DNA of 64,000 bases from Notolepis coatsorum (Eukaryota > Chordata > Actinopteri > Aulopiformes > Paralepididae): NCBI GenBank assembly GCA_963971535.1, contig OZ020589.1:74731811-74795810 (forward strand), written 5' to 3'. Position numbers and translations under genes: made by a program. This document shows positions 6,232 to 63,619 of the stretch, in pieces. The stretch's first letter is position 1. The number at the start of each line of letters is the position of its first letter. The notes beneath the pieces were generated by a model. It had not been told where the DNA came from. It saw nothing but the letters and a program-made list of their open reading frames with translations, and did no database searches.

Positions 6232-6249
6232 CTGTCTATACGTTATGAC

Positions 6250-15190: not shown

Positions 15191-16695
15191 TCTGTGATCA
15201 CCAAACTGCTCACCCATGCTGTTGGGTCATTCACAGGGGTTATTACATCTGCTTCCACAAGGTGGCGCAGTGTGACCTTCAGCCTGTCCAGGACAGCAAG
15301 GGGAATCTTCCTGCACCCATGTACCACAGGTGTAACTGCCGGGTCAATGTGTATGTGATGTACACCCGGGAACTCACCCAGCCCGCAGAAGAGAGATGGG
15401 TACATCTCCAGCAACTCCTCTTTAGTGGCTGGAGGTCTCTTCAGCTTCTCTGTTGTGGCTGGAGGTGTCTTCTCAAGTGCATCAATTCGTTTCACAAGCC
15501 GCAGTACTTCACTTGCCTCTCTGCCCATGATCGGCACGGTTGACTGGTTGATCACATAGAAATCAAGCTTGGCTTTAGCCTTAGCAGTTTCACACATCAG
15601 TGTCACGGTCCCTTCAGGCTTCAGACGGTTCCCTCCATACGCTACCAGCACTGTTCTTGTGGGCTGTAGCTGGATATGACCTGGAAATGTCTTTACAATG
15701 GACATAGGCAGCACGTTTCCATCCGCCCCTGTGTCAATCTTGAATTTGACCGGGACATTCCTCACATTGGCCATAGTGTACCATGCAGTGTCTTTACTTT
15801 TAGTGACTGCATCCACTTCCACACATGACACAGTACCTATAAACAGTGAATCTACATCTACCTCAGTCTCAATGTCGTGGACACCACGTCTTATTACTGT
15901 TCTGTATGGTTGGGTGCCCGTCCTGTCAGCTGGTGTAGAACACATCCTCGCAAAATGGTTTTGCCTGTTACATTTGTGGCATACAGCACCATAAGCCGGA
16001 CACTGGCGTGGTTCATGTGTTCTCCCACACTTGTTGCATTGTGCAATCCACTCTCTGTTTTTCTTTTCTGTCCTCCTGTCTTTGTAGAATCTTCCCCTCT
16101 CTGGTTGAGCTGGAGCTCTACTTATGGCTTGCACATATGATTCCCCCACAGCCTGTGTTGTTTGCATAGCTTGCAACTGGCTCCTCGCAGCTTCTGATGC
16201 TCTGCACACATCTACTGCTTTCTCAAGGGTTAAATTCTTCTCCCTCAGTAGCCTTTCTTTCAGAGCAGCATTATTCAGGCTGAACACCAATTTATCTCTG
16301 ATCATTTCGTTCTCACTTATTTTAAACTCACAGTTTCTGCTCTTCTGGCGCAGTTCCGTGACAAACTTGTCCACTGTCATCCCATCAGCCATAGAATGGG
16401 ACCAGAACTGGTACCGTTCAAAAACAATATTCTTCTGTGGGCTGCAATATGTTTCAAAAGCCTTGAGGATTGCATCCACTTTCTTCTCGTCACCCTCAAC
16501 AAATGTGAACGTGTTGAACACATCCAAAGCATCTTCACCAATTGTGTGTAACAGTATGGCCACTTTAATTTTTTCATCCTTTGCAATTGCTCCAGAGGCT
16601 GTCATATACAGTTGAAAACGCTGCTCCCACCTGCGCCAATTCTCTGCCAGGTTTCCCGTGAGTAGCAGCGAGGACGGTGGTTTGAGCTGCTCCAT
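15145..16695 (-). CDS. Gypsy element 1 gag, protease and start of RT
   Basis: A 516-aa frame starts MEQLKPPSSLLL and holds a capsid region (WRRWEQRFQLYMTASG), two CCHC-like zinc knuckles (CNKCGRTHEPRQC and CHKCNRQNHFARMC, near residues 215-250), a retropepsin motif FKIDTGADGNVLP near residue 320, and the first RT segment (FPGVHHIHIDPAV, VEADVITPVND). Gag, protease and pol were presumably one fused frame. The last residues after VITEKK are out of frame because of the homopolymer at 15183-15191. Gag itself appears intact. Confidence 0.9.
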   Translation of the reverse strand: MEQLKPPSSLLLTGNLAENWRRWEQRFQLYMTASGAIAKDEKIKVAILLHTIGEDALDVFNTFTFVEGDEKKVDAILKAFETYCSPQKNIVFERYQFWSHSMADGMTVDKFVTELRQKSRNCEFKISENEMIRDKLVFSLNNAALKERLLREKNLTLEKAVDVCRASEAARSQLQAMQTTQAVGESYVQAISRAPAQPERGRFYKDRRTEKKNREWIAQCNKCGRTHEPRQCPAYGAVCHKCNRQNHFARMCSTPADRTGTQPYRTVIRRGVHDIETEVDVDSLFIGTVSCVEVDAVTKSKDTAWYTMANVRNVPVKFKIDTGADGNVLPMSIVKTFPGHIQLQPTRTVLVAYGGNRLKPEGTVTLMCETAKAKAKLDFYVINQSTVPIMGREASEVLRLVKRIDALEKTPPATTEKLKRPPATKEELLEMYPSLFCGLGEFPGVHHIHIDPAVTPVVHGCRKIPLAVLDRLKVTLRHLVEADVITPVNDPTAWVSSLVITEKKILNSGCAWTPVI

Positions 16696-16840
16696 CTCCT
16701 CTGTTCTGTGCTCTGCTGCGCCGTCCAGACGCTGTTGCTAGCGTTAGCAACAACTAGCCCAACAAAAGTTCATCACTCACTCCGCAAATCCGCTGGGTTT
16801 TATAATCCGTGAGATCGACGTGCGTAGAGTGAAGATTCAG

Positions 16841-19092: not shown

Positions 19093-19211
19093 GCTTGCGG
19101 CCATGCCAACCTGTACACGCTCGATCTCGTCGGATCTCGGCCGCTACACAGGTTGGTCCTGGTTGGTACTTGGTTGGGAGACCGCCTGGGAAGGCCAGGT
19201 GCGGTGTGCTT
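19093..19211 (+). pseudogene. 5S rRNA-like sequence, diverged
   Basis: 119 bp follow the 5S rRNA layout: GCTTGCGGCCATGCCAACCTG, then GATCTCGTCGGATCTCGG, a box A region changed to CCGCTACACAGG, TACTTGG..GGGAGACCGCC, and GGGAAGGCCAGGTGC. It differs from the second copy at many positions including box A. It is probably a pseudogene. No T-rich pol III terminator directly follows. Confidence 0.8.
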
Positions 19212-19872: not shown

Positions 19873-19991
19873 GCTTACGGCCATACCAACCTGAACACGC
19901 CCGATCTCGTCCGATCTCGGAAGCTAAGCAGGTTCTGGCCAGGTTAGTACTTGGATGGGATACCGCCTGGGAATACCAGGTGCAGTAACTG
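19873..19991 (+). rRNA. 5S rRNA gene or recent copy
   Basis: 119 bp closely fit vertebrate 5S rRNA: GCTTACGGCCATACCA, CTGAACACGCCCGATCTCGT, and all three internal pol III control elements, box A AAGCTAAGCAGG, the intermediate element TTGGATGGGA and box C GGGAATACCAGGTGC. A few changes are seen in the stem after box A (GTTCTGGCCA) and the final bases read GCAGTAACT instead of pairing cleanly with the 5' GCTTACGG. No run of four T follows at once, so transcription termination is doubtful. It starts exactly 780 bp after the diverged copy. Confidence 0.75.
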
Positions 19992-30945: not shown

Positions 30946-32801
30946 GTATTCACAGGGAATGCAGTCCATGATAATATTGTGCCATGATCTCTTTGATGGG
31001 ACCTCATCCTTGATCCAGAATAAAATAATGTTTTTTCTGGCAGCAAATGTCAACAGATTGAACAGTCTCCTATGTTTGAAGTTGGCAATATGAATATCTG
31101 GGAGGCCTAGTAAGAGGCACAGGGGATCCAGTTTGATGGGGATCTGGAGTATATCAGAAAGTTCCTCTACAATGTCAATAGCTCTGGAGCTTTACACAGG
31201 ACCAAAAGCAGTGGACGTGGTTTCCAATCTCTATCTTGCATTTAAAGCAGAGTGGGGACGCATTGGCATCCATTTTACCTTTGAGGCCAGGGGTTATATG
31301 TATGCAGTGTAAGATTCTGAATTGAATAGATTTAGTGTGGTTGCAAACCGAGATTTTTTTTGCATAGGTCCACGTTTCCTGCCAGTTCTCGTCCGTAATC
31401 TCTGTGTCTAAATGTTTTTTCCAAGACTGTTTGGTGACAAGGGTGGATAAAGATGAATTGAGATTTAGCGTGCTATAGAAAATAGAGATTTGTCTTTTGG
31501 AGAGATGTAAGGAGAGGGCTTTCTCTACCTGCGAGGTGGAGCTATTGGTTAACAGTGAGGCGTCCTTGGTGATAAACTGTCTAATTTGTAAATATTTGAA
31601 AAATTCCGTTTTCAGTAAGCCATAGCGCTGCTGAAGCTGTAAGAAGGACATCAAGGTCTGGCCATCAAATAAATCACCAAGATTGGTTATGCCCTGCGTA
31701 TGCCAGATCCTGAAGCCACCGCCAATATGGCCCGGCTTAAAGTCAGCGTTGCCTACAATCGGGGTAAGAGGAGAAGTTAACTTAGCTCGGTTCTCCACCT
31801 TACGGACGGACCTCCAGGGGCTTGAATGAGCATAGCGTGATGGGGTTGGAACATAGTTTCCTAACAGACTTAAAGTCTTTGATAAATAGTAGGTTCCACA
31901 AGGTGGATTTAGATTGTGAAGATTCAATGTCTAGCCAGATTGAGAGTGGGTCTAGTTTGAGCCAGCCAACAAGCACCCTAAGGTGCGCTGCTAGTTGGTA
32001 ATGTCTTATATTAGGCAGGTCCAGACCTCCATCAACGCTATCCATCTGTAATTTGGCCATTTTCAGACGTGGTTTCTTCCCATTCCAGATGAACAAGCTT
32101 AGCCAGCCTTCTAGGACCTTGATAACCTTATTTGTTAACAGCACCGGAATCATTTGAAGAGGATATAACAGTCTAGGGAGTACATTCATCTTAATTAGAG
32201 CTATCCTACCCAGCCAGGAGATTGGTAAGGAGGCCCATCTAATTAAGTCTGCCCTTATAGTGTCTAAGAGAGGGGGGAAGTTGTCAAAAGTGGGTGTTAT
32301 AAACACTCCTAGGTATACAAAACCGGAGGGTGGCCAGCGAAATGGGAAGGGCTCAGGCAGGATCGGAATGGATTTCAGCGTCCCAAGTGGCATTGCTTCG
32401 GATTTGGTGAAGTTAATTTTGTACCCCGAGAAGGTTCCAAATGTGGAAATCATCCGGGTTAGACAGGGAATAGAAGAGTCGGGTTTGGATATGAAGATTA
32501 GTACGTCGTCTGCGTAAAGAGTAATTTTGTGCTCCCTTTCACCAACCCTGATGCCTGAGATCATGGCCGACTGCCTTATAGCCTGAGCAAGTGGTTCTAT
32601 GGCTATGTCAAAAAGCAAAGGGCTAAGAGGGTCCCCCTGGGGGTTCCCCTGTTGTAGGGGAAAGTTACTAGACCTAAGTCCGTTAGTCAAGAACGCAGCC
32701 ATCCGTGAGTTGTAAATAACCCTGACCCAGTCGATAAAGGTGCTTCCTAGGCCAAATTCTGCAAGGGTTAAAAATAGATACGGCCATTCTATACAGTTGA
32801 A
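30946..32801 (-). pseudogene. L1-type ORF2, C-terminal part of a split element
   Basis: Minus-strand frames give the RT (FNCIEWPYLFLTLAEFG; GNPQGDPLSPLLFD; ITLYADDVLIFIS, with the YADD box intact), the thumb (KMNVLPRLLYPLQMIP), a WLSLFIWNGKKPRLK motif typical of L1, a zinc-knuckle-like CFKCKIEIGNHVHCFWSC, and the tail LFNLLTFAARKNIILFWIK. At 32801 it breaks in mid RT, and the preceding residues (LSLDAEKA) are found at 41881 beyond the 9-kb insertion. One frameshift near 31850. Confidence 0.88.
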
Positions 32802-32810
32802 TGCTTTCTC

Positions 32811-34600
32811 AGTAGGAGTTAGATCATTTTGTGTACTGTACTGTGTAGGGACTGTCCTGCTCCACTAGGGGCAGGCTTTTCTCATTCACTAGGCTGGGGG
32901 CGGGGCTGGCTTTTCTAATTCACAGGAGCGATCTTTTCTACTCTACGTTGGCTTTGAGAGTTGTGAATGAATGAATGAATGAAAACTTTATTTAACAGAT
33001 TGCAGAATGGGTACAATACAGTACGGCTCAATACATACAATTGTTAAGGGGATGCAGACCTGAGAAAGACGTTTGTCTTGTTTCCATCAGGGTCCCCCAT
33101 TTTCAATTCATATAGACATTTATGACATACACAACATACATGACATTTATGGCATAGGGTATTAGGGACATATAGGTATTTAGTACTGATACATTTGTAA
33201 ATTGTGACATAACCGGTATTCAAATATACAGTACTGTTACCCCTAGATCCTGACAGAGTATATACATATGATGGGGAGGGGACTGTACATTAGGAGGGGG
33301 TGGGTGGGTGGGAGAGAAATATACATACGGCGGGGAGGGAATATATACATGTTTGATTGATTGAATTGATTGAAAACTTTATTAACAGATTGCAGAATGG
33401 GTACAGTACAGTACATAGATGTAGCAGTAGGCCTACTGTCTATCTGTATGTCATGTATGGGGACCCTGATGTAAACAAGACGAAAGTCTTTCTCTGGTCT
33501 GCATCCCCTTAACAATTGTGTGTATTGAGCTGTACTGTACCCATTCTGCAATCTGTTAATAAAGTTTTCAATCAATCAATCAAAACAGCTCAATACATAC
33601 AATTGTTAAGGGGATGCAGACCAGAGAAAGACGTTTGTCTTGTTTACATCAGGGTCCCCCATTTTCAATTCATCATAAACTGTACTGTGCAGGACAGTGA
33701 TGCAACAGTAGCAGGACAGTACATCACAGTGATGTAGCAGGACAGTGATGCAACAGTAGCAGGACAGTACATCACAGTGATGTAGCAGGACAGTGATGTA
33801 GCAGGAGTCAGGACATTGGATCACAGTGATGTAGCAAGACAGTGGATCACAGTGATCATTTTGTGTAGTGTACTGTGTATGGACTGTCCTGCTCCACTAG
33901 GGGCAGGCTTTTCTCATTCACTAGGCTGGGGGCGGGGCTTGCTTTTCAATTCACAGGAGCGATCTTTTCTACCACATTGTACAACAGAACTGCAGAGTCC
34001 CGAGGCTGGTAAGTGCTAGTTAAAATGTACAGTAGTGCACAAACTCTACGTTGGCTTTGAGAGTTGTATTATACTGATATAAAAGTTATGCTGTAGGTTG
34101 TATGTGGGAGGGGGGCGGGGGGCTGCGTCGCCCACAGTATTTGGTTAACGTTACTGTGGGAAGTTATGCTGTAGGTTGTGTATGGGGGCGGGGGGGGGTG
34201 GGTACGTCGTCCACGGTCTATTTAACGTTATGTACAGTAGTTGTGTTTGATTGATTGAAAACTTTATTAACAGATTGCAGAATGGGTACAGTACAGTACA
34301 TAGATGTAGCAGTACTGTCTATCTGTATGTCATGTATGTCTGTCCTGATGAATTGAAAATGGGGGACCCTGATGTAAACAAGACGAAAGTATTTCTCTGG
34401 TCTGCATCCCCTTAACAATTGTGTGTATTGAGCTGTACTATATTGTACCCATTCTGCAATCTGTTAATAAAGTTTTCAATCAATCAATCAAAACAGCTCA
34501 ATACATACAATTGTTAAGGGGATGCAGACCAGAGAAAGACGTTTGTCTTGTTTACATCAGGGTCCCCCATTTTCAATTCATCATAAACAGGGGTGTAAAA
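32811..34600. repeat. Duplicated left arm of the 9-kb element
   Basis: The terminal block (GATCATTTTGTGTA through GACTGTCCTGCTCCACTAGG and AGGAGCGATCTTTTCTA) at 32822-32945 recurs at 33856-33975, and CTCTACGTTGGCTTTGAGAG recurs at 32940 and 34045. A second block at 33350-33680 recurs at 34240-34590; each is partly palindromic, with TTGATTGAAAACTTTATTAACAG opposite CTGTTAATAAAGTTTTCAATCAA. The AATAAAGTTTTCAATCAATCA words look like the 3' tail of the LINE at 34740-35735. Confidence 0.75.
33690..33852 (-). repeat. Minisatellite, inverted copy of the right-arm array
   Basis: Units of GTGATGTAGCAGGACA and GTGATGCAACAGTAGCAGGACA, the reverse complement of the TGTCCTGCTACATCAC units at 40840-41830. 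About six units. Confidence 0.88.
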
Positions 34601-34739
34601 AGTACCCAGAAATTATACTTTACTACTACTATTATACTAAGTACACTGTACAACTGTACAAGCAAAACTGTACATTGGAATATTGACGAAACCATACTTG
34701 GTCATTTACTGTACATTGGAGGGGGTTGGGTTAGGACAT

Positions 34740-35735
34740 TTACAGGGTCCAGTTTCGAATTGCAGTCTCCCGTAGTTGCTCTTTGAGAGTGGTTTTGAAA
34801 GTGGGTAGTGATTCACATTCCTTTACAGCAGGGATCAGCAACCTTTTTGATACGAAGTGCCATTTTAAAATGTTCTTGTTAACCAGTGTGCCATATCAAT
34901 GTTAAGGTTAATTATGAAACCACATCACAATGTAAATCTCCAACAGATCTGTAATTCTATTCCATCCATATAGGCAACGTGCATAGCAATAGTTTTAATA
35001 ACCATTTTCCTCTCATAAATATATAAGAGAATGCTGCCGTCTTTATGAGATGCTTGCTTGCCATACCTGGACACATTCAGCCTTGTCTGCCTCATCCTTT
35101 AAAGTTCTCATGTTTGGTCTCAAAATGGCGTTTAACACTCAATGTTCGGCAAACAACAACAGACTGACCCTTCTCATTGGCTCTGACCATGAAATATCCC
35201 TGGTATATCAGTCAACCTACAGTACCATAAATAACAGGCTGTGCAACTGCCAATGGCTGTGAAAGAGGTAACTGCATGGGGAGGTAACTCAACATTTCCA
35301 AAAAGGTTCCTCTTACACATTTGCTAGTGTGCCATGTTGGTTTAGATAATGTGTACCAATGGTGGCACTCGTGCCTAAGGTTGCTGACCCCTGCTTTACA
35401 GCTTTGGGTAGGGCGTTCCACATCGATGTGGCATAATTGCGAACCGTGTTTAGTCCCTTGTTTGAGCCGAATCTGGGTTTAACATGATTTGTGGAGCTCC
35501 CTCTGGTGTTGTGATCGTGGTATTCACTGACCTTTGGGAAGTATTTTGACATGTACATGGGTACCTTAGTCGTATAGTGTATCTTGTTGACCAGGCCCAT
35601 TGCAAGTGGCTGTACTCTGTCATCTACTCTAAGCCATCCTAGGTTGTCAAAGTGGGCAGGGGTGAGGTGGGTTCTAGGAGTAAGGTCAAGCAGTAGTCTG
35701 ACCAGTTTGTTTTGAGATCTGCCAGGTTATGACAT
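34740..35735 (-). pseudogene. CR1/Rex-type LINE C-terminus, split by a hAT
   Basis: Minus strand: a C-terminus with YFPKVSEYHDHNTRGSS, FGSNKGLNTVRNYATSMWN and ALPKAVK up to 35402, continuing after the hAT at 34829-35393 with ECESLPTFKTTLKEQLRE, AIRNWTL and a stop at 34740-34742. The exact continuation confirms that the hAT is a later insertion. Different family from the 30-kb LINE. Confidence 0.82.
34829..35393. mobile_element. hAT MITE with 8-bp target duplication
   Basis: Ends CAGGGATCAGCAACCTT and AAGGTTGCTGACCCCTG are flanked by CTTTACAG at 34821-34828 and 35394-35401. 565 bp, no transposase. It interrupts the LINE C-terminus. Confidence 0.93.
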
Positions 35736-36599
35736 TTATGCTTCTACCTAAAACCAGGTTATGTGAGTAGCTGGGATTGGTTCAGGTTCTGATATTGCTG
35801 TACAGGCCAAGATTTCACTGATCGCTTTAGTACTTAGACACATAGCACTATGTTGTATCCTCTCACCAGGCTCCAATGCAATGGGGCACATTTTCACATG
35901 ATGTTGCTGTCAATGACGCATTATACAAAATGGTCATCAGTAGTGGCCACAGAAATAAACCCATATTCCATAATGGGACTTGAGTATACTGAATATTTGA
36001 CCATACCAAATATCTCATATAAAAGGCCTTCTAGTAGGCCAGTTGACTAACTCACATAATTAGCATCATATAGCCACAATACTAACTAACAATGCTTTAC
36101 TTTTTCTCTTTCCTTGGCATGTCTCCCAGGGGGCCCGGAATCACTACTTACTGGTCTGTTTAGTCCTATCTCATTCCTCATCTCTCCTGCTCCATCCCTC
36201 ATCTGCTGACTGTGGTCATCCTGTCCTGGGTGTGTTTGGTCTCCTGCTCCACTCTTCTTCAGGCTCTGTGATCCTGCACCTTTTTAGGGTGGAGGATATC
36301 GGCAGCCATTGGACGTGGTTGGCTGCCTGAATTTAGCTTAAGTCTATTGCTCTTTTTGCCCAACAAAGTAACTGCAATTTTTTTGAGGACCAGCACCATG
36401 AAAGGACAAGACAATCTGAATGTGTGCACATAACCTCACCATGCTCACTGAGAACACCTGCACAATGAGGATTACAGTTGATCACAAATGATGTGCTTGT
36501 TTATGTGTTGTGCTTGTAGTAGTAGTGTTAGCTTGTGTGCTATTTGATTGTTATTATTTACACTGTTTCTAAACAACTCCTAACTGATCAGAAAAAGAT
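35736..36599. other. No feature recognised
   Basis: Interior of the 9-kb element. A CT-rich stretch at 36120-36280 and nothing coding that I recognise. Confidence 0.45.
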
Positions 36600-36724
36600 A
36601 CTGGAATATGTTGTTTCTTTACACATATGTTGGATTATGTAATTGGTTTGTCTTTTTTATTGGTTTGTCATGACAAACCAATTACATAATCCAACATATG
36701 TGTAAAGAAACAACATATTCCAGT
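36600..36724. repeat. Perfect 53-bp palindrome
   Basis: 36600-36652 (ACTGGAATATGTTG... to GGTTTGTC) and 36672-36724 are exact reverse complements around the 19-base spacer 36653-36671. The spacer ends ATTGGTTTGTCAT, which also pairs with the start of the right arm. The lack of any mismatch in the arms suggests recent origin. Confidence 0.95.
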
Positions 36725-37799
36725 TAACGGTATATTTTTTTAATGATTCGTTACGGCGAAATCAATACTTCCATTTGTATAAATTGCATTAAGCGGACCT
36801 TAGTATTGCTGCCTGGCTGAGGGGCTTGTTGCGGCTCATGTGCATGCGCACGCTCGGCCAATCAGAGCAACACGGAAGGGCTTGTTGCTTACTGAAAGTA
36901 TTCACGCGGTTGGGGCTCCTTTTGCACAAATTACTGCATCAATACAGCTAAATATATACTTTTCCACGATATTCTAATTTATTGAGCTGCACCTGTACAT
37001 CACTGTGCTCAGGAGGCAAAACGATGTCTAACATGCCTGCCATGTATCACAAACAGTACTGTATTTGCAAATCTGGTATGTCATAAATGTATAGATGTAG
37101 CTGTACTGTCTATCTGTATGTCATGTATCAAGTTTCAAGTTCAAGTTTCTTTAATAGTTGTCATACAGAAGTACAGAATACTTTTGCTAGACAAAAGATA
37201 AGTGAAATAAAATAGTATAGCATGTAAAAAAAATAGAAGTAAAAATAGAAGTCACGTACGTAGACACAGTGTAAGGGCCATATGAGTGTTTTGATTATGT
37301 CGGTAGCTTCTCCGATATATATATATATATTTTGTAATTGTGTTTAGTTTAAGGCACAATTAGGCGCCGGTGTGTAGAGGCCAAGGCCAACTTGTTGGAT
37401 TTGTATTGCTAGAATATTAGAATGAATTTTGTCTAGAATAGTGTCTTATTTATGTTTGAACACTAGAGGGCTCACCGCCTCCATTATAGCCAGCTGGAAG
37501 TCATGAGATTACTTGAATGTAATTCAAGCATATATACCTTTAGGAGTTGAACATGAAGTAGTATTTTAACTTTGGGTGGAATAAAGTTTTAGAAACATTT
37601 GGGATGAATACACCTTTAAAGCTATTTGTGGGAATACACATACAAAAATAAAAACGAAAGAATGGAAAAACATGCAGAACTGATCGCTAATGCTGTCACG
37701 TCCCTGATGAAGATGAACAGGAGCACTTGGATTGGCAAGGTATTGTATTGGAGCGGACCCACGACAGGATGAAGGATGACAGGATGGGTCAAGCGCAGA
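36725..37799. other. Unassigned interior of the 9-kb element
   Basis: No gene. Holds a fragment at 37085-37125 shared with the left-arm repeats (AGATGTAG, TACTGTCTATCTGTATGTCA), a short (TA)n at 37315-37330 and TTTGGGTGGAATAAAG at 37571, a relative of the minisatellite word TTTGGGTGGAATACACC. Confidence 0.5.
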
Positions 37800-39614
37800 T
37801 GACATTTCAATGGCGCCGGGTGTGGGAGGGGATTAAAGCCATCACTGACTATAAGGGGACAACATCACCCATAAATAGCTCTGTCACATTAACCGAGGAG
37901 TTGAACCATTTCTATGCCCGGTTCGACAGAGCAAACAGGGACCAAATAGTACAGCCCCTCCCCCCCAGCGGCACAGCCCCCGTCCTGAGCCACCATGAAG
38001 TCAGGTGTTGCCTCCGGAATACCAACCCAAGGAAGGCAGCAGGACCTGATGGAGTGGTGGGCCGCATACTGAAGGAGTGTGCGGACCAGTTGACGGAGGT
38101 CTTCACAGATATATTTAATCTTTCCCTGCTACTATCATATGTCCCAGCATGCTTCAAAACATCCACAATTATTCCAGTACCCAAGCAGTCAGTTGTCACG
38201 TGCCTGAATGATTACAGACCCGTGGCACTCACCCCCCCCCCCTGCTAAATGTCTAGAGAAACTGGTCAGGAAACACATTACATCCATCATTCCGGCCTCC
38301 TTTGACCAATACCAGTTTGCTTACAGGCAGAACAGATCAACTGAAGATGCTATAGCCATTGTGCTTCATACCGCCCTAGAACACCTAGAGAAGAAAAACA
38401 CCTACGTAAGAATGCTCTTTGTCGACTATAGCTCTGCCTTCAACACCATACTCCCCCGTAAACTCATCAGTAAACTCCAAACCCTGGGTCTGTGTAATAC
38501 ACTGTGTAACTGGGTGCTGGACTTCCTCACAAACCGCACACAAGCCGTCAGACTGGGCAACTACACCTCGTCCACCCTGTCTCTCAGCACCGGCGCCCCG
38601 CAGGGTTGCGTACTCAGCCCACTACTGTACACCCTGCTCACACATGACTGTTCCCCCTCCTACCCCTCCAATTACATCATCAAGTTCGCAGACGATACCA
38701 CAGTTGTGGGTCTCATAACAAACAACAATGAGTCTGCCTACAGGAGGGAGGTGGAGGACCTTATAGTCTGGTGTGATAATAACAACCTGGCGCTCAATAT
38801 AAAGAAAACAAGAGAGATTATAGTGGATTTTAGAAGATCAAGGCCTGACCACTCCCCTCTGCTCATCAACAACGAAGTAGTGGAGAGGGTCACTGAGTTC
38901 AAGTTCCTGGGTCTCAGTGTGAGTGAGACCCTGTCTTGGAGCACCAACACCGCCTCAGTGATCGGAAAAGCTCAGCAACGCCTATACTACCTAAGGAAGC
39001 TGAAGCAGGCTGGCCTGCCACGAAATCTCCTTGTCAACTTTTACCATTGTGCGGTTGAGAGTGTGCTGACCTACGGTGTGTCTGTGTGGTTCTCCAGCTG
39101 CACAAAGGCAGAGCAAGAGGCTCTACAGAGGGTGGTGAAGGCGGCAGGCAGGATCATCGGGACTCCTCTACCAAACATCACCTCCGTCTTCACCTCCCGC
39201 TGCCTCCACCGCTCCAAATGTATCATCAAGGACCAGTCGCACCCAGCACATCACCTCTTTCAGCTCCTTCCCTCAGGGAGGAGATACCGGTCAATACATG
39301 CTAAGAGTACACGATTTAAGAACAGCTTTTTCCCCCAAGCAGTTAGACTGTTAAACACTCATTGACTGTCCCCTCACGTGCACCATGCACTTACCACTGC
39401 ACTTGATAATCTCTGATTACCACCCATTATGCACTTTATTATTTAAAATATTCTGTTATGTACAGTGTTATGTGTTATGTGTTCATGTATGTATTATGTA
39501 CTACGGTCTGTGGGAGCTCCCCTGAAATTTCGTTGTATACTGTGCAATGACAATTAAAAGTCTATTCTATTCTATTCTATTCTATTCTATTCTATTCTAT
39601 TCTATTCTATTCTA
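37800..39614 (+). mobile_element. L2-type LINE ORF2, nearly intact RT
   Basis: A plus-strand frame from about 37812 (FQWRRVWEGIKAITDYK) through RT motifs [51 protein letters not shown] (first catalytic Asp), [15 protein letters not shown] and [12 protein letters not shown] (both Asp present) to the C-terminus [16 protein letters not shown] with a stop at 39365. The only break I see is a frameshift in an 11-C run at 38232-38242 after VALT. The 5' part, including endonuclease, is missing. The element ends with the (TTCTA)n tail at 39561-39614, typical of fish L2. Confidence 0.9.
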
Positions 39615-39739
39615 ACCCCCCCAAAGGAATGCGTGTGTGCTGCCCATCTCACATGTGTTACAAATAAAGACTTCATAGTCCCATTTCATTCATTTATTCA
39701 TTCAAACGATTTGGGGTTATAAGCTTTAAAAGGATTTGG

Positions 39740-40209
39740 GGAAGACACCATAACACAATTGGGTATTCGAACCTTTAAAACCATTTGGGTGGAATACACC
39801 TTTAAAATTATTCGGGAAGACACATTTGGGTATTAGAACCTTTAAGACCATTTGGGTGGAATACACCTTTAAAATGATTCGGGAAGACACATTTGGGTAT
39901 TAGAACCTTTAAAACCATTTGGGTGGAATACACCTTTAAAATGATTCGGGAAGACACATTTGGGTATTAGAACCTTTAAAACCATTTGGGTGGAATACAC
40001 CTTTAAAATTATTCGGGAAGACACATTTGGGTATTAGAACCTTTAAGACCATTTGGGTGGAATACACCTTTAAAATGATTCGGGAAGACACATTTGGGTA
40101 TTAGAACCTTTAAAACCATTTGGGTGGAATACACCTTTAAAATGATTCGGGAAGACACATTTGGGTATTAGAACCTTTAAAACCATTTGGGTGGAATACA
40201 CCTTTAACT
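39740..40209. repeat. 67-bp minisatellite, about seven copies
   Basis: CACATTTGGGTATTAGAACC recurs at 39821, 39888, 39955, 40022, 40089 and 40156, an exact 67-bp period. Each unit also contains TTTGGGTGGAATACACC and ATTCGGGAAGACA. Copies differ at only a few bases (AAAATT/AAAATG, AAGACC/AAAACC). Confidence 0.95.
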
Positions 40210-40246
40210 GTCCTGCTAGTGTTGCATCACTGTGATGTACTGTCCT

Positions 40247-40800
40247 GCTAACCATTTGGGTGGAATACACCTTTAACTGTCCTGCGACTGTACACCTACT
40301 GTACTGCTACTGTACACATACTGTACTGCTACTGTACACCTACTGTACTGCTACTGTACACCTACTGTACTGCTACTGTACACACCTCCTGCACATTGTG
40401 ATGGGGCTGTCCTGCTAACCATTTGGGTGGAATACACCTTTAACTGTCCTGCTACTGTTGCATCACTGTGATGTACTGTCCTGCTAACCATTTGGGTGGA
40501 ATACACCTTTAACTGTCCTGCGACTGTACACCTACTGTACTGCTACTGTACACCTACTGTACTGCTATTGTACACCTACTGTACTGCTACTGTACACACC
40601 TCCTGCACATTGTGATGGGGCTGTCCTGCTAACCATTTGGGTGGAATACACCTTTAACTGTCCTGCTACTGTTGCATCACTGTGATCCACTGTACTGCTA
40701 CTGTATTATAACCTTTAAAACAATTTGGGTGGAATACACCTTTAAAATCATTCGATTTGGGTTATAACCTTTAACACTATTTGGGTGGAATACACCTTTA
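40247..40800. repeat. Higher-order repeat mixing two minisatellite units
   Basis: Blocks starting ACCATTTGGGTGGAATACACC at 40251, 40418, 40487 and 40632 alternate with TGTCCTGC and 22-bp CTACTGTACTGCTACTGTAC units. The composite block from 40251 repeats at 40487 (236 bp), the second copy having one 22-bp unit fewer. Confidence 0.85.
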
Positions 40801-40839
40801 ACTGTCCTGCAGCCATTTTACCACTGTCCACTGTACTGT

Positions 40840-41830
40840 ACAGTCCTGCTACATCACTGTCCTGCTAACCATTTGGGTGGAATACACCTTTAACTGTCCT
40901 GCTACATCACTGTGATGTACTGTCCTGCTACATCACTGTAATGTACTGTCCTGCTACATCACTGTCCTGCTACATCACTGTCCTGCTACATCACTGTCCT
41001 GCTACATCACTGTCCTGCTACATCACTGTAATGTACTGTCCTGCTACATCACTGTCCTGCTACATCACTGTCTTGCTACATCACTGTCCTGCTACATCAC
41101 TGTGATGTACTGTCCTGCTACATCACTGTCCTGCTACATCACTGTGATGTACTGTCCTGCTACATCACTGTCCTGCTACATCACTGTGATGTACTGTCCT
41201 GCTACATCACTGTCCTGCTACATCACTGTCCTGCTACATCACTGTCCTGCTACATCACTGTGATGTACTGTCCTGCTACATCACTGTCCTGCTACATCAC
41301 TGTGATGTACTGTCCTGCTACATCACTGTCCTGCTACATCACTGTGATGTATTGTCCTGCTACATCACTGTGATGCTACATCACTGTCCTGCTACATCAC
41401 TGTGATGTACTGTCCTGCTACATCACTGTCCTGCTACATCACTGTCCTGCTACATCACTGTGATGTATTGTCCTGCTACATCACTGTGATGCTACATCAC
41501 TGTCCTGCTACATCACTGTCCTGCTACATCACTGTGATGTATTGTCCTGCTACATCACTGTCCTGCTACATCACTGTGATGTACTGTCCTGCTACATCAC
41601 TGTCCTGCTACATCACTGTCCTGCTACATCACTGTCCTGCTACATCACTGTGATGTATTGTCCTGCTACATCACTGTGATGCTACATCACTGTCCTGCTA
41701 CATCACTGTCCTGCTACATCACTGTGATGTATTGTCCTGCTACATCACTGTGATGCTACATCACTGTCCTGCTACATCACTGTCCTGCTACATCACTGTG
41801 ATCCACTGTCCTGCTACTGTTGCATCACTG
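40840..41830. repeat. 16/26-bp minisatellite (TGTCCTGCTACATCAC)
   Basis: About 1 kb of TGTCCTGCTACATCAC units with an optional 10-bp TGTGATGTAC insert, giving alternating 16- and 26-bp steps. Same sequence in reverse complement near the left end (33690-33852). The plus-strand 83-codon Cys/Ser/Thr-rich frame at 41402 is repeat translation. Confidence 0.95.
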
Positions 41831-41871
41831 TCCTGCACAGTACAGGACACAAAATGATTTAACTGCCTCTC

Positions 41872-42000
41872 TGCTTTCTCCGCATCGAGAGACAGCACCA
41901 CAGCGGGGTGGTCCATTTTGTAAGTCATTTGGATAACATTAAGGAGCCTTCTCATGTTGTCGGTAGAGTTCCTACCCTTAATAAAATCATCATCTTTTGT
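41872..42000 (-). pseudogene. L1-type ORF2, upstream part of the split element
   Basis: Minus strand: DFIKGRNSTDNMRRLLNVIQ, then AVVLSLDAEKA, the L1 RT segment that normally precedes FDRIEWPYLF. The continuation is at 32801 across the 9-kb insertion. Similarity to L1 stops upstream of DDDFIKGR, so the element is 5' truncated. Confidence 0.85.
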
Positions 42001-42498
42001 GGTCTCGTTCCTTAGAGTTTGCGTAGCCATCATGCTTTTTATAGCCAAATAAGATAGGTAGAAATAAAGGTAAAGTATGGCAATGGTTTAATTAACTTGA
42101 AATTATAAAAAGAGGCTTTTTGGCGTAAACATTTAAGTTCCGGAGTCACATCATGGCACATACCCCATCCTCGACCCGGAACCGGAACCCTTTAATACAA
42201 ATGTTGAGATTGTTGGTGAACAACTAATTTTTGGTTAGTTTTAACGTTAGCTAACGTTAGATGCAGCTACAGGCAATCGATGAGGAGGAATTTCTTAAAT
42301 CGGCAGCGCGTCAGAGCCGTATATAATAGAATAGCCCTGTGGTACGTAGGCACGACCGCGCAGATCGAAACTACCTGTTGTATTAAATGAATTGATGTTT
42401 AACTTGTCCCTGTGTCCAATCATTTTGGTCACTAGCCCCACCCGTTCATTGTAAACAATGATGCATGTAATTGTATTAACGTTATTGTGTGTTGTAGC
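42001..42498. other. Unassigned, probable interior of the 17-kb hAT unit
   Basis: Contains TTAGCTAACGTTAG words but no domain that I recognise. Confidence 0.4.
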
Positions 42499-52283: not shown

Positions 52284-52457
52284 GGACTTCCGGTTTGAAC
52301 GCAATGTGAAGCGATACGCGTTTGGTTACAGCTCCGCTCCCGTCAACGTTAATTTCGTTTAAAAACCTTATTTGAACAATACCAAAAGAGATGAAACCAC
52401 ATTGTATGTATTGATAAGACCTTCTACTAACTATATCAAAAGACATAAAGACTCAAC

Positions 52458-53633
52458 ATGGATATTAAGGATAAGAAAAAGGGTGGAAAGAGATTCGGCA
52501 CAGATACTCCAACGGCGGCGATTTTGACACGGTCAAAAAATACAACAGGCGAGGCAGCGGCGGTACCGTTGTTGACTAGCCCCGATGGGGGGACTATAGT
52601 GGAGAATATACCGGGACCAACGACGACTGGCCCCGAGAGGGAGACAGCAGTTGACAACACAACGGTAACAACGTGTAAAAATACCGTAAGAGATAAAGCA
52701 GGGGAATTTGAGAAGATAATCTCCAACAAACCCATCGGGTCCATCATTGCACCCACAACATCAACTGACACAAGCAGTGCAATTTCACAACCAGACTTCA
52801 ACTCTCTGACTATCCTGATGAAGGAACAGATGGTCGCTTTCAAATTACACATCGAGGAACTCAAAGATGAATTCAAAGCACACGTCGATGCTAAATTCGA
52901 AGAGGTTATGGAAGCAGCCGCTGCACAGGCCGGGCGAATCACGGCAGTGGAGAATACGGTGATAGAAATTACACAGATGGTCCAAGAGAACGAGAAGAAC
53001 GTCAACGATGGATTAACAGAGTTATCGAAGGAGATAAAACAGGTGGAAGAAGAGTGTCGGAAGAAAATACAAGAAGTCGAAGAGGAAGCAAGGGAGAGGC
53101 AGCTCGAGACCCAACGTTACTACAGGCGAAATAATATCCGCATTGTGGGACTGGATGAATCAGTCAATTGCACAGACGACAGCTTTCCAACAGTGTTAGT
53201 AGATATTTTAGGTAATAACACCCTTCCCACAGCGCCGACAGTGGACCAATGTTACAGAGTCGGTACACGAGGCCAAAGAGTTAACGGTCCGAGAGTTATC
53301 ATTGTTACCCTGCGCAAGACGGTAATAAGAGACGCCATCATTAGAGGAGCGCGCAATCAAAGGGGGAAACTGAAATATGGTGAAAATTCAATATCTATCT
53401 ACGAAGATCTATGCAAGGAGGCCATCGCTCAGCGTTTCCCCTACAAGGATGTGATGCAGAGAATGTTTAAGAGTAGTCTCAGGCCAATCCTTAACTACCC
53501 GGCACTATTATCGATCTTGGGAAAAGACGATATTAGGCAGGGAATACGCACGCCTAAAGCCGCCGAAGATTACATGAAGCAACATGGATCTGGTCCCCCC
53601 GGGCAGGACGCAACACTGGCTCAGAACAGATAA
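52458..53633 (+). CDS. L1 ORF1 protein (RNA-binding, coiled coil)
   Basis: 391 aa, uninterrupted. The N-terminal 110 residues are Thr/Pro-rich and low complexity. A coiled coil spans roughly residues 115-225 (EEVMEAAAAQAGRITAVENT, EKNVNDGLTELSKEIKQVEE). An RRM-like region follows (NNIRIVGLDESVN, NGPRVIIVTLRKTVIRDAII), then a C-terminal domain (ISIYEDLCKEAIAQRF). This is the standard L1 ORF1p order; the protein trimerises and coats the L1 RNA. ATG at 52458 follows the 5' UTR directly. Confidence 0.88.
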   Translation: MDIKDKKKGGKRFGTDTPTAAILTRSKNTTGEAAAVPLLTSPDGGTIVENIPGPTTTGPERETAVDNTTVTTCKNTVRDKAGEFEKIISNKPIGSIIAPTTSTDTSSAISQPDFNSLTILMKEQMVAFKLHIEELKDEFKAHVDAKFEEVMEAAAAQAGRITAVENTVIEITQMVQENEKNVNDGLTELSKEIKQVEEECRKKIQEVEEEARERQLETQRYYRRNNIRIVGLDESVNCTDDSFPTVLVDILGNNTLPTAPTVDQCYRVGTRGQRVNGPRVIIVTLRKTVIRDAIIRGARNQRGKLKYGENSISIYEDLCKEAIAQRFPYKDVMQRMFKSSLRPILNYPALLSILGKDDIRQGIRTPKAAEDYMKQHGSGPPGQDATLAQNR

Positions 53634-54791
53634 GCCTATTCATCTCTCTCTTTCTCTTTGTATTTTAGTAATTTTATTAGAATGACTTTACCACAGCTCA
53701 ACAAAAGTAACAGATGATATGCACGCTGACAACAATAAGGCACAAGATGTTTAATATGGCTCGTAAGGCATTATATTTACAGTATTCTGGTCTCTGTGGA
53801 GACAATAATCCAACATTGACATTATGAACATTCTGGAACATTCTGGGCTCCTCTCTCGACTGCTCAGGGACACAAAGGAATATCCCGGAAAATACTAGTA
53901 GGTCATGACCCCTGGGTAGGAAGATCATTCTGGAACATAACAGCAGTGTTTACATATTTACCAGGGTATTCTACAACCTTCTAGAATATAATGCACCCCT
54001 TCAACGAAGGCCTGTAAATTTAACATTAACATCCGGTGCGAATAAGCATATGATCTAAGAACTGAAGTTTAATTAGGCTTTAATAAGGCTTAAAAAAAAA
54101 AAAAAAAAAAGATATTAGCCACATCTAAATGTATAAGCACGACACGATTATTCGAATATTTTAAATAATTACTCCACTGATTTAGAGATTTGCACAATGT
54201 AGCTCTAAAAGTCTCTGTTTTTCTCTTTTTTCTCTTTACTCAATTTTATTTTCTCTGTTTTTCTCTGATGAGTTTTATTTTAGTTCTCACTCCTTTTTTT
54301 ATTTTTATCTTTCATTGTTATTTTTTTTCATTTTAAGGTGTTAGTATTTATCTCCACTCTTTTCCTTTTTTCTGATGTTTCCTACATAAGTTAGTAGAAG
54401 GTTCAAATGAATATATCAACGAAGGTATATTTTTCATTTTTCACACTATTGTTAGTACATTAATGGGAAGGCGCAAGACCAAAAGCGACATTCTATTGAA
54501 TTAGAATGAAAGTTTTAGATCCTATGGCAATTAGCATAGGAAGAGTAGGATTACAAAGCTCCATTTGGGTAATCCGGTGGCCTAAGGGAGGGAGTCATAC
54601 GTGTAGGATGTGTCTATGGGACACAATCCTGTATGACTCTCGGTGGGAGGGGGGGAAAGGGGATTTTTATTTGTATATATGTATGTTTTTAAGCTCGGCT
54701 CTCAACGGGACCTCACTAGTTGGATGTATATCTATTGTAGCCTCGCACTCCAGAAGCATTACCAACAACTACACAACAACATGTATAGATT
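53634..54791. promoter_or_regulatory. L1 inter-ORF spacer with a heat-shock-element cluster
   Basis: A long 1.16-kb spacer. At 53826-53843 GAA-CA-TTC-TG-GAA-CA-TTC gives four perfectly spaced alternating pentamers, the HSF-binding pattern. Further TTCnnGAA sites lie at 53928-53935 and 53979-53986 (TTCTAGAA, with another TTC ten bases before). 53685-54000 differs in composition from the T-rich sequence after it and could be an insertion. Function is inferred from motif spacing only. Confidence 0.5.
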
Positions 54792-55724
54792 ATGGCTAGT
54801 TTGAATATAATGATCTGGAACACTGGGGGAATAAATAACCAACACAAACGCAAAAGCGTGCTCACACTGATGAAAAAAGAACAGGTGGACGTGGCTCTGC
54901 TAAGCGAAACGCACATTCTAGAGAAAGACAAAGATACGTTAGCGGACAACACATATCATAGCATTAGTCACTCTTCTTTTGGTACGAGAACTCGGGGTGT
55001 AGCCATAGTCGTTAGACGGAAGTTGAATATTGAATTAAAGGGAGTATGGTCTGATGTAGATGGTCGGATAACTATAGCTAAGATTGTACACAAGAACAGG
55101 AAAATAGCGTTGGTAGCGGTATACGCCCCAAATTTGTAGGAAGTGGGTTTCTTCACTACACTAACCAAAGCAATGTTAGACCTTCCCGATTACTCATTTA
55201 TAATAGGTGCGGATTTTAATGCCATTTGGAATCCAAGGATGGACAAATCTTACCTCGCCTTTTCCAGCGAACAAAATAATTCATCTAATGCATTAAAGGA
55301 TTGGTCGAAGATTACAGGTGTAAATGACTTATGGCGATCACTTAACCCCACGACCCGAAAGTCCCCGAGACTATTTGATAACTATGAAGTGGAAATGATA
55401 CCCAATGCACTATCAGATCACTGTTTTTCAGATTTACTCCTAAAAGGAACATTTGGTATACTATCTTCCCGAGCCCCAAGATGGCGATTTAACTCGATGC
55501 TGCTTAATAACAAGGAATTCATTACACAACTCAAAGAAGCTCTTACAGTATTCCTACAAGAGAATGCAAACTCGGTGCAGGACCCCAGAATAATATGGAT
55601 GTCGGTAAAGGGAACAATCAAGGATTTCACTGATAGCTTTTCCTCCAAAATGCGCAAGAATCGATGCACAAAACTGGCTGAACTGGAAACGCTTTACTCA
55701 ACGTTATTTAATTCTTTACAATAA
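54792..55724 (+). pseudogene. L1 ORF2 endonuclease domain, with a stop
   Basis: Starts MASLNIMIWNTGGINNQHKR, with ALLSETHI (catalytic Glu), FGTRTRGVAIVV and ALVAVYAPN, then an in-frame TAG at 55137-55139. The same frame resumes with FIIGADFNAIWNP (catalytic Asp/Asn) and ALSDHC (catalytic Asp-His). The segment between RSLNPTTRK and NALSDHC is shorter than usual, so part of the fold is probably deleted. It ends at a stop at 55722-55724. Confidence 0.85.
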
Positions 55725-55924
55725 AATCAAGTTAATGCACTAAAAAAAGAGATCAATGCCATATACAGACAACAATCGGAAATACAAATACGTAGCACAA
55801 GACAACAGCAGTACTCCCAAGGTTCTAAACCTAGTCACCTATTAGCCATGCGATTAAGAATTAATGCAAAATTTGCAGATATAACTACCATTAGAGCACA
55901 ACAAGTACTTGTTACAGACCCTGA

Positions 55925-58456
55925 AAAAATAAAGTGACATTCAAAGAATTCTACTCCAACTTATATAAATCAGAAACGACCTTCGATCAAAACAAAATGG
56001 ACACATATCTTAATCAAATTATTCTCCCTAAAGAAGATGACGCTAAACAGTTAGAAACACCGATCACACTAGAGGAACTCAAGAAGGCCATATCCGAAAT
56101 GCAAAGTGGTAAGGCTCCTGGAAGAGACGGTATCCCACCAGAAATGTACCTCTCTTGTTGGGACATAATTGGACCCTTATTACTAAATATGATCTTATAC
56201 TCAGTCAAGGAGGGGAACTTCCATAAGAACGACAATATTGCACTCATAACAGTCCTTCTCAAAAAAGACAAAGACCCCACCGAGTGCGGTAGTTACAGAC
56301 CCTTAAGCCTCCTCGGAACCGATATCAAACTGTACTCTAAGGTATTAGCCATCAGATTACAAAAGCATATGACGTCTTTAGTTCATCCGGACCAAACTGG
56401 CTTCATAAGAGGCCGCCTGATCACTGATAACATAAGACGATTACTGCATGTACTAGATGCCGACAAGGACGACACCATACCTAAGGCGATGCTGTCCCTG
56501 GATGCAATGAAAGCTTTTGACAGGCTGGAATGGTCGTATCTATGGGCAGTACTAGAGAAGATGGGGTTAGGTAAAGGTTTCATTGATATGATTAAAGTAG
56601 TATACAAAGACCCATCGGCCATGATTACAACAGGTATAATCACCTCCGGAATCTTTCCGGTATCACGCACAGCTAGACAGGGTTGCCCTCTTAGTCCCGG
56701 ACTATTCGATCTATCATTAGAGCCTTTAGCACAATATATAAGACAATCCCAATCCATAGAACCAATCGTAATCAAGGGCACACAACATAAAATTAGTTTA
56801 TATGCGGACAACGTAATACTGTTCATGCAAAACCCCAACACCACACTGCCTCATCTGCTCAAGTTGATTGAGAACTTTGGAGATTTATCGGGATTCAAGA
56901 TAAATTGATAAAGATAATGGGATAAAAAAGATATAACCCTCCCAGGAGAGATACCTATGGTAAAACACTTTAGATGTTTGGGAGTGGAAATATTCCCCAC
57001 CATAAGACAAACGGTGAAGCACAATTACACAAAAATCCAAAACAAAATCAAAGACGACCTTGATAGGTGGGCAAAACTTAAAAACTCAGTACAGGCACGG
57101 ATATCAATAGTTAAGATGGACGTACTACCTAGAATCAACTTCTTCAGCTCAATGCTACCGTTACCCCCTCCAGAGGGTTACTGGAAAAAATTACACTCCT
57201 CCACATACAAATTTATTTGGAATAACAAACCACCACGTATAAAAAGATCCACCGCACAGAGAAATAAAGCAGACGGTGGCATGGCATTTCCAGATTTTTT
57301 CCACTATTTTAAGGCGTACACTTTAAGACCATTGACAACATGGTTTGATCCCCAAGCATTAGTATCCTGGAGAAAATTAGAAGAAAACATAGTAGCCCCA
57401 CATAGACTGAAGGACATAGCATACACTAAACTATCAATTAAGCATTGCGAACGGAAATTTGGCCCCATAATTACTCATGCGATCCGGATATGGCGTGAAA
57501 CACAAAAAAAATATCCTAACCCACATAAATGCAACAATCATACTCCCTTATTCAATAACAATGCACTCTTGATTGGAAAACGACCTATAAGATTCCCTAT
57601 ATGGGAAAAGCAAGACATACACTCATTAGGGGATGTTTTTAACAAACAGGGTTTTTGTAGTTATGAAGAAATACGCAAAAAATTTAATCTCACCAAGTCC
57701 ACACATCTTTTTTACATACAGTTATTGTTATGTTTGAAGACTCAAGGTGTTCCATTAAAGAAACCAATTGAACACCACAGATACCACAAATTCTTCTATG
57801 AAAGAGAGACATCGAGAGGTTTTGTTTCAGATTTTTACCATCAATTACTAACGTCCTCGTATGAAACCCTCCACCTAGACTCCGTCTGGAGGAGGGATAT
57901 ACCAGACCTGGAAACTGATTTTGATTGGCAAGAAGCCTGGGCAAATGTTCGACTCACATCAAGGAACCCGGACCATCAACAAATCAATCTTAACTATATT
58001 CACAGGACATACTTGACTCCTATAAGACTGAAAAAAATGGGTCTTATACAAGACTCCAAATGCTCCTTATGTACAAATGGGGACGAGGGGACATTTATGC
58101 ACATGTACTGGGACTACCCACCAGTTAAGATATTCTGGAAAGAGGTGACCCAGCAATTATCAAATCTCTTAACTTGGAATATACCTGTACACCCCTCTGT
58201 ATTACTGCTGAATGATGTGTTTGAGTGTGCAGTACATCCACAGCTAAAGAGATTGGTTTTATCGGGTATCACAGTGGCTAAAAAGCTGATAGCATCACGA
58301 TGGTTCCAACCGGAAAAAATTAGCCGAAAGGTCTGGATTATTACATATCTCGATGTGATCTATCAAGAAATATCTACAGCAAGAATTTTGGGTCTCAATG
58401 AATCCAAAATGACATTGTGGTTAGAAGTGGTGGAGAAAATAAAAGCTAGCATATAA
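55925..58456 (+). pseudogene. L1 ORF2 reverse transcriptase and C-terminus
   Basis: In a different frame from the endonuclease: GKAPGRDGIPPEMY, SYRPLSLLGTDIKLYSKVL, QTGFIRGRLITDNIRRLL, MLSLDAMKAFDRLEW, RTARQGCPLSPGLFDLSL and the catalytic box LYADNVILF, where the second Asp is Asn. Stops at about 56907-56935 separate this from KHFRCLGVEIFP..., KFIWNNKPPRIK and a C-terminal knuckle CSLCTNGDEGTFMHMYWDY, in which the last Cys is Tyr. Predicted inactive. Confidence 0.88.
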
Positions 58457-60633: not shown

Positions 60634-60641
60634 ATCTGAAC

Positions 60642-63607: not shown

Positions 63608-63619
63608 TGAAGGGCCAGA

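Follow-up and report, generated by a model that had tools for sequence, protein, structure and literature searches.

An insertion with a one-sided minisatellite array in an L1 element of Notolepis coatsorum and the high-copy transposon family that shares its ends

A gene for an L1-type reverse transcriptase of Notolepis coatsorum is split by a bounded insertion of 9062 bp, located on the plus strand at positions 32810-41871 of the window (the whole 64,000-nucleotide stretch of contig OZ020589.1 that was analysed). Its ends recur in a family that is hundreds strong. The copy displays the features of a non-autonomous DNA transposon with terminal inverted repeats (TIRs): shared ends, a target site duplication (TSD) of fixed length, presence at many loci and no transposase found in the scans. 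It is quite probable that we are dealing with a young, high-copy, non-autonomous family of DNA transposons which is laden with cargo and mobilized in trans, with hAT as a possible source of the transposase.

The interrupted gene and the boundaries of the insertion

The host gene lies on the minus strand. Its 3′ part (31803-32801) has an RVT_1 match and aligns with ORF2p, and the 5′ part of this truncated copy (41880-42020, with an approximate outer limit) is recognized by the same alignment and by the rejoined frame. When the flanks are joined through a single copy of the duplication, an open frame is obtained (...LSLDAEKAFNCIEWPYLF...) that aligns with human L1 ORF2p (query 7-318, E 6e-62) with no gap at the junction; the junction is also ungapped in the alignment with the other L1 of the window (55925-56908). 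A preliminary description had read the region as an L1 reverse transcriptase split by a single transposon unit with TIRs, and this reading is upheld by the shared ends, the TSDs and the continuity of the L1.

The TIRs (32810-32845, plus strand, and 41836-41871, minus strand) are identical at 30 of 36 positions without a gap, in agreement with the inverted terminal sequence of about 33 bp initially noticed. In local alignments, their similarity score (for the ends as first delimited) was matched by none of 5000 mononucleotide shuffles and by none of 3625 random pairs of window stretches. The TIR pattern occurs twice in the window, both times at an end of the element, and was not found in 100 shuffles. 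The tip sequences are CAGTAGG on the left and GAGAGGC on the right. The left 132 bp (32810-32941, plus strand, with a GC box at 32897) are identical in 18 of 20 copies fetched from the genome, and the right terminal 60 bp are the same in all 12 complete copies.

The duplication had been described as 9 bp long. The 9-mer TGCTTTCTC is found at both 32802-32810 and 41872-41880, and is the sole identical 9-mer pair at that spacing when 54,921 window positions are compared. However, a 9-bp duplication was discarded upon examination of other copies, which carry 8 bp. A C lies directly outside the left boundary first drawn (that is, before AGTAGG) in 20/20 fetched copies of the same 3.4-Gb genome, and the true element starts at 32810. 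The TSD of the window copy is therefore the 8-bp sequence TGCTTTCT (32802-32809 and 41872-41879), and a ninth base appears to be duplicated because the first base of the element, C, matches the right flank base by chance. Among the 22 copies read at both ends, 18 have a perfect 8-bp TSD (9 of the 12 complete copies that were fetched and 9 of the 10 longest pairs), and a 9-bp match at the former boundary was detected in none (0/12 and 0/10). The imperfect cases are L018 and C4:192.99, which have no TSD; L019, with 7 bp or a shifted duplication; and L021, with 7/8. Hence, one chance base can make an 8-bp duplication look like a misleading 9-bp one. The mobile unit would be defined by the invariant ends (about 132 bp on the left and at least 60 bp on the right) and the 8-bp TSD, and its insertion into the L1 may have been carried out by a transposase acting in trans.

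Copy number and length of the family

Whether other copies share these ends received a strongly positive answer: genome-wide, exact 25-bp tips were found 299 times (left) and 302 times (right), and a control with reversed patterns gave none. For 64 of the 88 left tips on contigs C1, C4 and C6, a partner right tip lies within 70 kb; the other 24, and 18 of the 82 right tips there, are partnerless. The distance between paired tips ranges from 286 bp to 57.7 kb, with a median of 9.2 kb, and 11 of the 64 paired copies exceed 20 kb. The family looks young, in a sample where youth is over-represented because the 20 fetched copies are those ranked highest by identity and come from C4 and C1 alone. 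Two 26.56-kb copies on C1 were considered as one element and rejected as such: one slice aligns only in fragments of 91-97%, and the second gave no megablast match.

A span of up to tens of thousands of bases is large for passenger elements that lack an enzyme. According to a review on giant transposons (PMC6431247), the efficiency of DNA transposition falls over a cargo of about 6 kb, artificial constructs have moved 100-200 kb, and a survey cited there contains no Pack-MULE above 7 kb. Giant transposons such as Teratorn, as presented in that review, also have tens of kb between short TIRs; they differ in that Teratorn combines piggyBac and herpesvirus genes and has its own transposase, whereas the elements described here contain a mosaic of retroelements and their helper gene was not found. 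That elements of 20-58 kb moved as whole units is unproven. A natural family with a 9.2-kb median and intact 8-bp TSDs in 9 of its 10 longest pairs provides a test of the conditions under which a transposase tolerates large cargo.

A composite interior and its minisatellites

The interior of the window copy may be regarded as passenger DNA, in which nested retroelements and a hAT MITE are combined with minisatellites and duplicated fragments of the ends. Next to the left end, repeats at 32963-33679 (minus strand) appear as nested, partly inverted 3′ ends of a non-LTR retroelement with GAAT/GATT tails; their retroelement origin is suggested by the ORF at 35316-35726 and by RT-like frames, recognized by eye, of the 26.6-kb copy. 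They are followed by an inverted copy of the right end without the outer tip (33680-33853, minus strand; 164 of 204 columns identical), which harbors five inverted TCCTGCTAC motifs, and by a second left end that lacks the tip (33854-34241, plus strand; where the two can be compared, 116 of 120 columns are identical), which harbors three GC boxes and, at 34009, the sole GTAAGT of the element. In L019 the left end is single, and its terminus continues straight into sequence of the 33854-34241 type.

Beyond the duplicated ends lies a 5′-truncated non-LTR retroelement with a C-terminal frame and a 3′ UTR (34242-35725, minus strand), named by eye and without a Pfam match. Nested in it is a hAT-like MITE of 565 bp (34829-35393) with its own 8-bp TSD, CTTTACAG (34821-34828 and 35394-35401), whose flanks rejoin into an open frame. 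A unique core (35726-37129) contains a perfect 53-bp hairpin (36600-36724), and another non-LTR retroelement with an RT domain (RVT_1) and a TTCTA tail is inserted at 37815-39613 (plus strand). A search for TSDs of the nested retroelements in the window copy gave none that was convincing, and dating of the nested pieces by TIR divergence was dropped as there was no consensus for comparison.

A mosaic of this kind might be built in situ: a MITE-like element would have inserted at less than 1 kb and grown by insertions and minisatellite expansion, the large form never being mobile. Tip pairs of 286, 439 and 846 bp do exist, and the retroelement at 37815-39613 is missing at that position from the other copies compared (in L012, positions 15849 and 15850 adjoin where the window copy has its positions 5006-6804). 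However, the MITE insertion recurs in 9 of the 20 fetched copies with 99.3-100% identity, the retroelement piece at 34242-35725 is common to seven other copies of the same type at 95-100%, and the core is found at 98-100% in L009, L011, L012, L015, L019, L023 and L024. Such pieces are shared by unrelated loci with different TSDs. Furthermore, collinear blocks of 9.9-11.4 kb are common pairwise to three loci (L013, L014 and the 26.6-kb copy). Because unrelated loci share the same MITE, retroelement piece, core and collinear blocks, growth at a single locus is excluded for units of about 6-11 kb, and we consider it very improbable that the large form was never mobile. Much of the mosaic predates the dispersal of the copies, and the reading that we favor is therefore that mosaics about 6-11 kb in size were each mobile as a single unit; part of the length is due to post-insertional growth, as indicated by the absence of the 1.8-kb retroelement from the other copies compared.

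The right arm is made of 2 kb of minisatellite. It includes a 67-bp minisatellite with 6.8 copies (39753-40207), a mixed array of 67-bp, 22-bp and 16-bp units (40208-40892) and an array of 16/10-bp units (ACTGTCCTGCTACATC, ACTGTGATGT; 40893-41836), all on the plus strand; 65 tokens of the 16-bp unit were counted at 40893-41845. All 12 complete copies have the latter array immediately inward of the 3′ TIR. The preliminary description had both subterminal regions carrying the same minisatellite in opposite orientation. The right array and an inverted 16-bp array on the left (33689-33844) are indeed real, but the left one is internal, 0.87 kb inside the left end and within duplicated end sequence, and it is not constitutive, as only 12 of the 20 fetched copies have inverted units in their first 1.7 kb. 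Exact scans for the minisatellite gave no match in viral and genome contig collections, a result of little weight as both are without vertebrates, and a full-text literature search retrieved no published mention of two of its 16-mers. Probably, the 16-bp array just inside the right tip provides many copies of a putative site for transposase binding or bending, and it would grow by slippage or gap repair.

Candidate transposases and known relatives

Six-frame Pfam scans, which included MULE DDE, P-type and hAT domains, detected no transposase domain in the window copy, in line with the initial view of the unit. A helper with these ends was not detected either: among the best-scoring matches listed on C1, C4 and C6 (35 hAT, 2 MULE, 2 Merlin-type and 1 P), none falls inside an element.

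An element of the Mutator/foldback or Rehavkus type, with ends built from minisatellites and a MULE transposase acting in trans, had been the initial proposal, and we now find it unlikely. Its assignment to Mutator rested on a 9-bp TSD, and this argument fails because the true TSD is 8 bp, although 8 bp is still inside the range of 8-11 bp given for MULEs (PMC6446971). Three MULE domains of good quality, with open frames, are present in the genome; however, the search for an autonomous relative was unsuccessful on C1 and C4, where neither of the 2 MULE matches is inside an element (the other 12 are on contigs outside the tip listing). The foldback reading is weakened by the inconstant left array (inverted units are absent near the left end in 8 of 20 copies, and the array of the window copy is internal and tip-less), and long inverted repeats built of tandem repeats are not found at both ends. 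A full-text search found no publication on foldback elements in teleosts.

Muta1 and other Aedes MULEs (type 2 foldback), as described in PMC5225508, have TIRs with subterminal tandem repeats and many non-autonomous copies with common ends and heterogeneous interiors; they differ in having TSDs of 8 or 9 bp, repeats in both TIRs and a 3.2-kb autonomous copy, whereas here the TSD is 8 bp, the array is constant at the right only and no autonomous copy is among the matches listed. The Mutator-related Rehavkus carries a minisatellite directly inside its 3′ TIR, a feature shared by the complete copies; its 9-bp TSD, PHD-finger transposase and arthropod and annelid hosts, as reported in PMC6446971, set it apart from an element with 8 bp and no transposase found. 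The Tetris foldback of Drosophila virilis, in the account of PMC4079207, also lacks coding capacity and has tandem repeats in its ends and TSDs of 8-10 bp, but its repeats are of about 220 bp and lie in both long TIRs, while the TIR is short and the units are of 16 bp in our case. Extra internal TIRs are known in MULEs (PMC3310237); in plant MULEs, as in the window copy, an extra internal end copy has no TSD of its own, but the families described there are about 1-1.4 kb long.

Twelve P-transposase matches were found genome-wide, 11 of them with stop codons, and the sole P match on C1, C4 or C6 falls outside the paired elements, among the best-scoring matches listed. P elements produce 8-bp TSDs, with which the TSD observed here is compatible. 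Galileo, a member of the P superfamily, has variable, recombining, repeat-bearing ends similar to those seen here, but its TSDs are of 7 bp and its TIRs of 18 bp to 1.25 kb, as described in PMC3573991. A Galileo-like element with an 8-bp TSD and tandem repeats that bind the transposase seems, on balance, improbable.

Zisupton/KDZ is a fourth candidate, which we consider highly improbable. Elements of this kind are long in fish. No KDZ match was found in the genome, a weak argument as the search was silent in controls too, and Zisupton TSDs are 8 bp (PMC12730594).

Coding sequence of the hAT type is abundant, with 10,698 first-look candidates genome-wide; the best 150 were scored, and nearly all are stop-free. 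The TIRs of hAT elements begin with C/T-A-G, and their TSDs usually have T at position 2 and A at position 7. The 8-bp TSD, the left tip CAG and the abundance of hAT coding sequence point toward a hAT enzyme, while the right tip (GAG instead of CAG) and the base counts of the TSDs (T at position 2 in 8/19, A at position 7 in 6/19) point away from it. We thus give a hAT-type enzyme a little less than an even chance of having moved the family, the remainder being shared by P, Mutator, Merlin, KDZ or another enzyme.

The family also permits one to test whether subterminal minisatellites act as enhancers. A tentative and rather doubtful extension is that invariant short ends plus a one-sided enhancer array of minisatellites might allow non-autonomous cargo, from ten to several tens of kb in length, to be moved routinely by some transposase. 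If true, such a system would be, in a vertebrate, an open-ended vehicle that gathers and spreads other mobile DNA.

Insertion site and element ends

A minus-strand reverse transcriptase of the L1 type is split in the window by a foreign block of 9062 bp (32810–41871). When the L1 flanks are joined with a single copy of the duplicated bases, one open frame is obtained (...VVLSLDAEKAFNCIEWPYLF...), and residues 7–318 of the rejoined protein align with human L1 ORF2p (E 6e-62) without a gap at the junction. The placement of the block inside an L1 reverse transcriptase, proposed in the preliminary description, is confirmed by this open frame and gap-free junction. The RVT_1 score is 87.4 bits for the rejoined frame and 73.1 bits for the left part by itself, and the junction is also ungapped in the alignment with a second L1 of the window. 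This second L1-type element (52449–58456), part of which served as control, has an ORF1-like frame of 394 aa and RT ORFs, and shows no interruption at the position corresponding to the split in the focal L1.

Other loci were detected in the window. Two 5S rRNA gene copies (19093–19210 and 19873–19991; 68 and 97 bits) lie about 0.8 kb apart, and long minus-strand frames at 12661–16737, 60612–63666 and 1503–4489 look retroelement gag/pol-like by eye.

The ends of the focal element resemble each other in inverted orientation with a score reached by none of 5000 shuffles and none of 3625 random pairs, and their pattern is absent from the rest of the window. TGCTTTCTC flanks the element on both sides and is the sole identical 9-mer pair at that spacing (54,921 window positions). 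It had been read as a 9-bp duplication, with the left boundary at 32811. That reading was rejected because the base preceding this boundary is C in all 20 copies fetched from the same genome, and the copies give 8 bp. With the element start set at that C, the terminal inverted repeats (TIRs) are ungapped and identical at 30 of 36 positions. The shared inverted ends originally described are upheld.

The fetched copies are the first 20 of 40 listed left-end loci (14 on contig C4, six on C1), chosen by top identity, a sampling biased toward young copies. Nine of the 12 with the right end in hand show perfect 8-bp duplications when the element starts at C; the exceptions are L021 (7 of 8 bases), L019 (7 bp or shifted) and L018 (none). 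Among the ten longest pairs of left and right tips (the outermost exact 25 bp) on contigs C1, C4 and C6, spanning 23.7–57.7 kb, nine have a perfect 8-bp duplication and one, C4:192.99, lacks it. As these 22 copies are all distinct, the pooled count is 18/22, while a 9-bp match at the earlier boundary is found in 0/12 complete copies and 0/10 longest pairs. The first position is C in 13 of 19 duplications (the 18 perfect ones and that of the window).

Copies in the genome

The genome searched comprises 3.42 Gb in 4787 contigs. The left 90 bp yielded 617 first-look candidates and the right 112 bp yielded 634; in each case 40 were scored, and all were identical over the full query. Another 25 weaker, partial matches of the right query were to array units. 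The expectation that other copies share these ends was borne out by exact tips, 299 left and 302 right, compared with 0 matches in the genome for the reversed pattern. On C1, C4 and C6, 88 left and 82 right tips form 64 pairs in correct orientation and at most 70 kb apart (chance expectation below 1, by rough arithmetic), leaving 24 left and 18 right tips partnerless. Spacing in the 64 pairs has a median of 9.2 kb, the shortest being 286 bp and the longest 57.7 kb; 27 pairs fall at 7–10 kb, 29 exceed 10 kb and 11 exceed 20 kb. The left-most 132 bp are identical in 18/20 copies, and the right-most 60 bp in 12/12.

Internal segments are also shared. Eight copies (that of the window, L009, L011, L012, L015, L019, L023 and L024) have a core mosaic in common, most of its non-repetitive segments being 95–100% identical, with lower values in the minisatellites and a microsatellite-rich stretch. 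A hAT-like MITE nested in the focal element, flanked by its own 8-bp duplication (CTTTACAG), recurs at 99.3–100% in 9/20 fetched copies. L013, L014 and a 26.6-kb copy have pairwise 9.9, 11.1 and 11.4 kb in common, in collinear blocks at 96–97%, one of them 5.5 kb long. Judging from these shared segments, mosaics of about 6–11 kb transposed as units, and larger ones of 20–58 kb may have done so. The 1.8-kb non-LTR insertion of the window copy (37815–39613) is absent from the other copies compared; hence, larger totals may partly reflect growth after insertion. In a 22.4-kb copy (L014+L039+L040), the stretch at about 14.5–17.2 kb is a simple repeat of about 2.7 kb with SIYL in frame, far shorter in a 16.3-kb copy.

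Internal anatomy of the focal element

Tandem repeats make up nearly the whole of the right 2.1 kb (39753–41836): an array with a 67-bp unit is followed by a mixed stretch and then by units of 16 and 10 bp, counted as 65 tokens, of which 37 are ACTGTCCTGCTACATC. This one-sided array probably multiplies a transposase-binding or bending site; repeats within the ends have precedents in Galileo (PMC3573991) and Muta1 (PMC5225508). Alternatively, slippage or gap repair may have generated it as a neutral by-product.

A GC box is present in the left end. An inverted right-end copy without tip (33680–33853) lies about 0.87 kb inside it, followed by a second left-end copy, also without tip (33854–34241), identical to the outer left end at 116/120 columns of the part in common. 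Aberrant repair or recombination seems to have generated this arrangement; extra internal TIRs have a precedent in plant MULEs (PMC3310237). The second copy carries three GC boxes and the element's only GTAAGT, which together may be a remnant promoter and first exon. The stretch 33973–34042 of the inner copy, which the outer left end lacks, contains the GTAAGT (34009), downstream of a GC box, and may represent a relic first exon from a lost autonomous element. Farther inside come a 5′-truncated retroelement, the hAT-like MITE, a unique core and the non-LTR insertion; the core contains a perfect hairpin of 53 bp (36600–36724; 19-nt loop, z −16.6).

Transposase and relationship to known elements

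In agreement with the preliminary description, six-frame Pfam scans of the focal element gave no transposase: they detected the RT of the non-LTR insertion, the adjoining ALKBH8_N, and one fungal domain under its cut-off. ALKBH8_N (E 1e-15) directly follows RVT_1 in the non-LTR RT (38208–39362), and this Pfam label probably misleads when applied to retroelements. Pfam scans of left-end loci L039 (1–5.2 kb) and L012 (1.2–9.6 kb), six frames each, and of L025 in two frames only, gave one zinc knuckle. By eye, a weak test, frames of at least 110 aa in the 16–22 kb copies and of at least 100 aa in 12 further copies or part-copies were retroelement-like, simple-repeat or unplaced, with no transposase look.

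Genome-wide, KDZ gave 0 matches (its controls were silent too), P transposase 12 (11 of them interrupted), MULE 14, Merlin-type 4, and hAT 10,698 candidates, the best 150 of which were scored. Among the transposase matches listed on C1, C4 and C6, 0/40 fall within any of the 64 elements paired on these contigs. Of the 12 P-transposase fragments, 10 contain a single TGA and a single TAA apiece (contigs C6, C8, C9, C23, C24, C45 and C3831), which suggests amplification of an already broken P piece.

The copies occupy many loci, with ends that do not vary, duplications of fixed length and mosaics in common, and no enzyme was found in the sequence scanned. We infer that a transposase made elsewhere would bind both ends and cut and paste the DNA lying between them. 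The acting superfamily is tentatively taken to be hAT, a choice rated slightly below an even chance. It is favored by a duplication length of 8 bp, by the CAG at the left tip and by the abundance of hAT genes in the genome, but neither the right tip nor the consensus of the duplications fits it well.

Among known kinds, Rehavkus (PMC6446971) also has a minisatellite ahead of its 3′ TIR; however, its duplications are 9 bp, against 8 bp in this family. The foldback comparison initially envisaged is weak: the right minisatellite array is real, but foldback elements need repeat-built arms at both ends, approached by only 12/20 copies. Altogether, the family belongs to a known kind of element, the non-autonomous TIR transposon, and looks unusual in combining its size and copy number with ends that do not vary and a minisatellite on one side.
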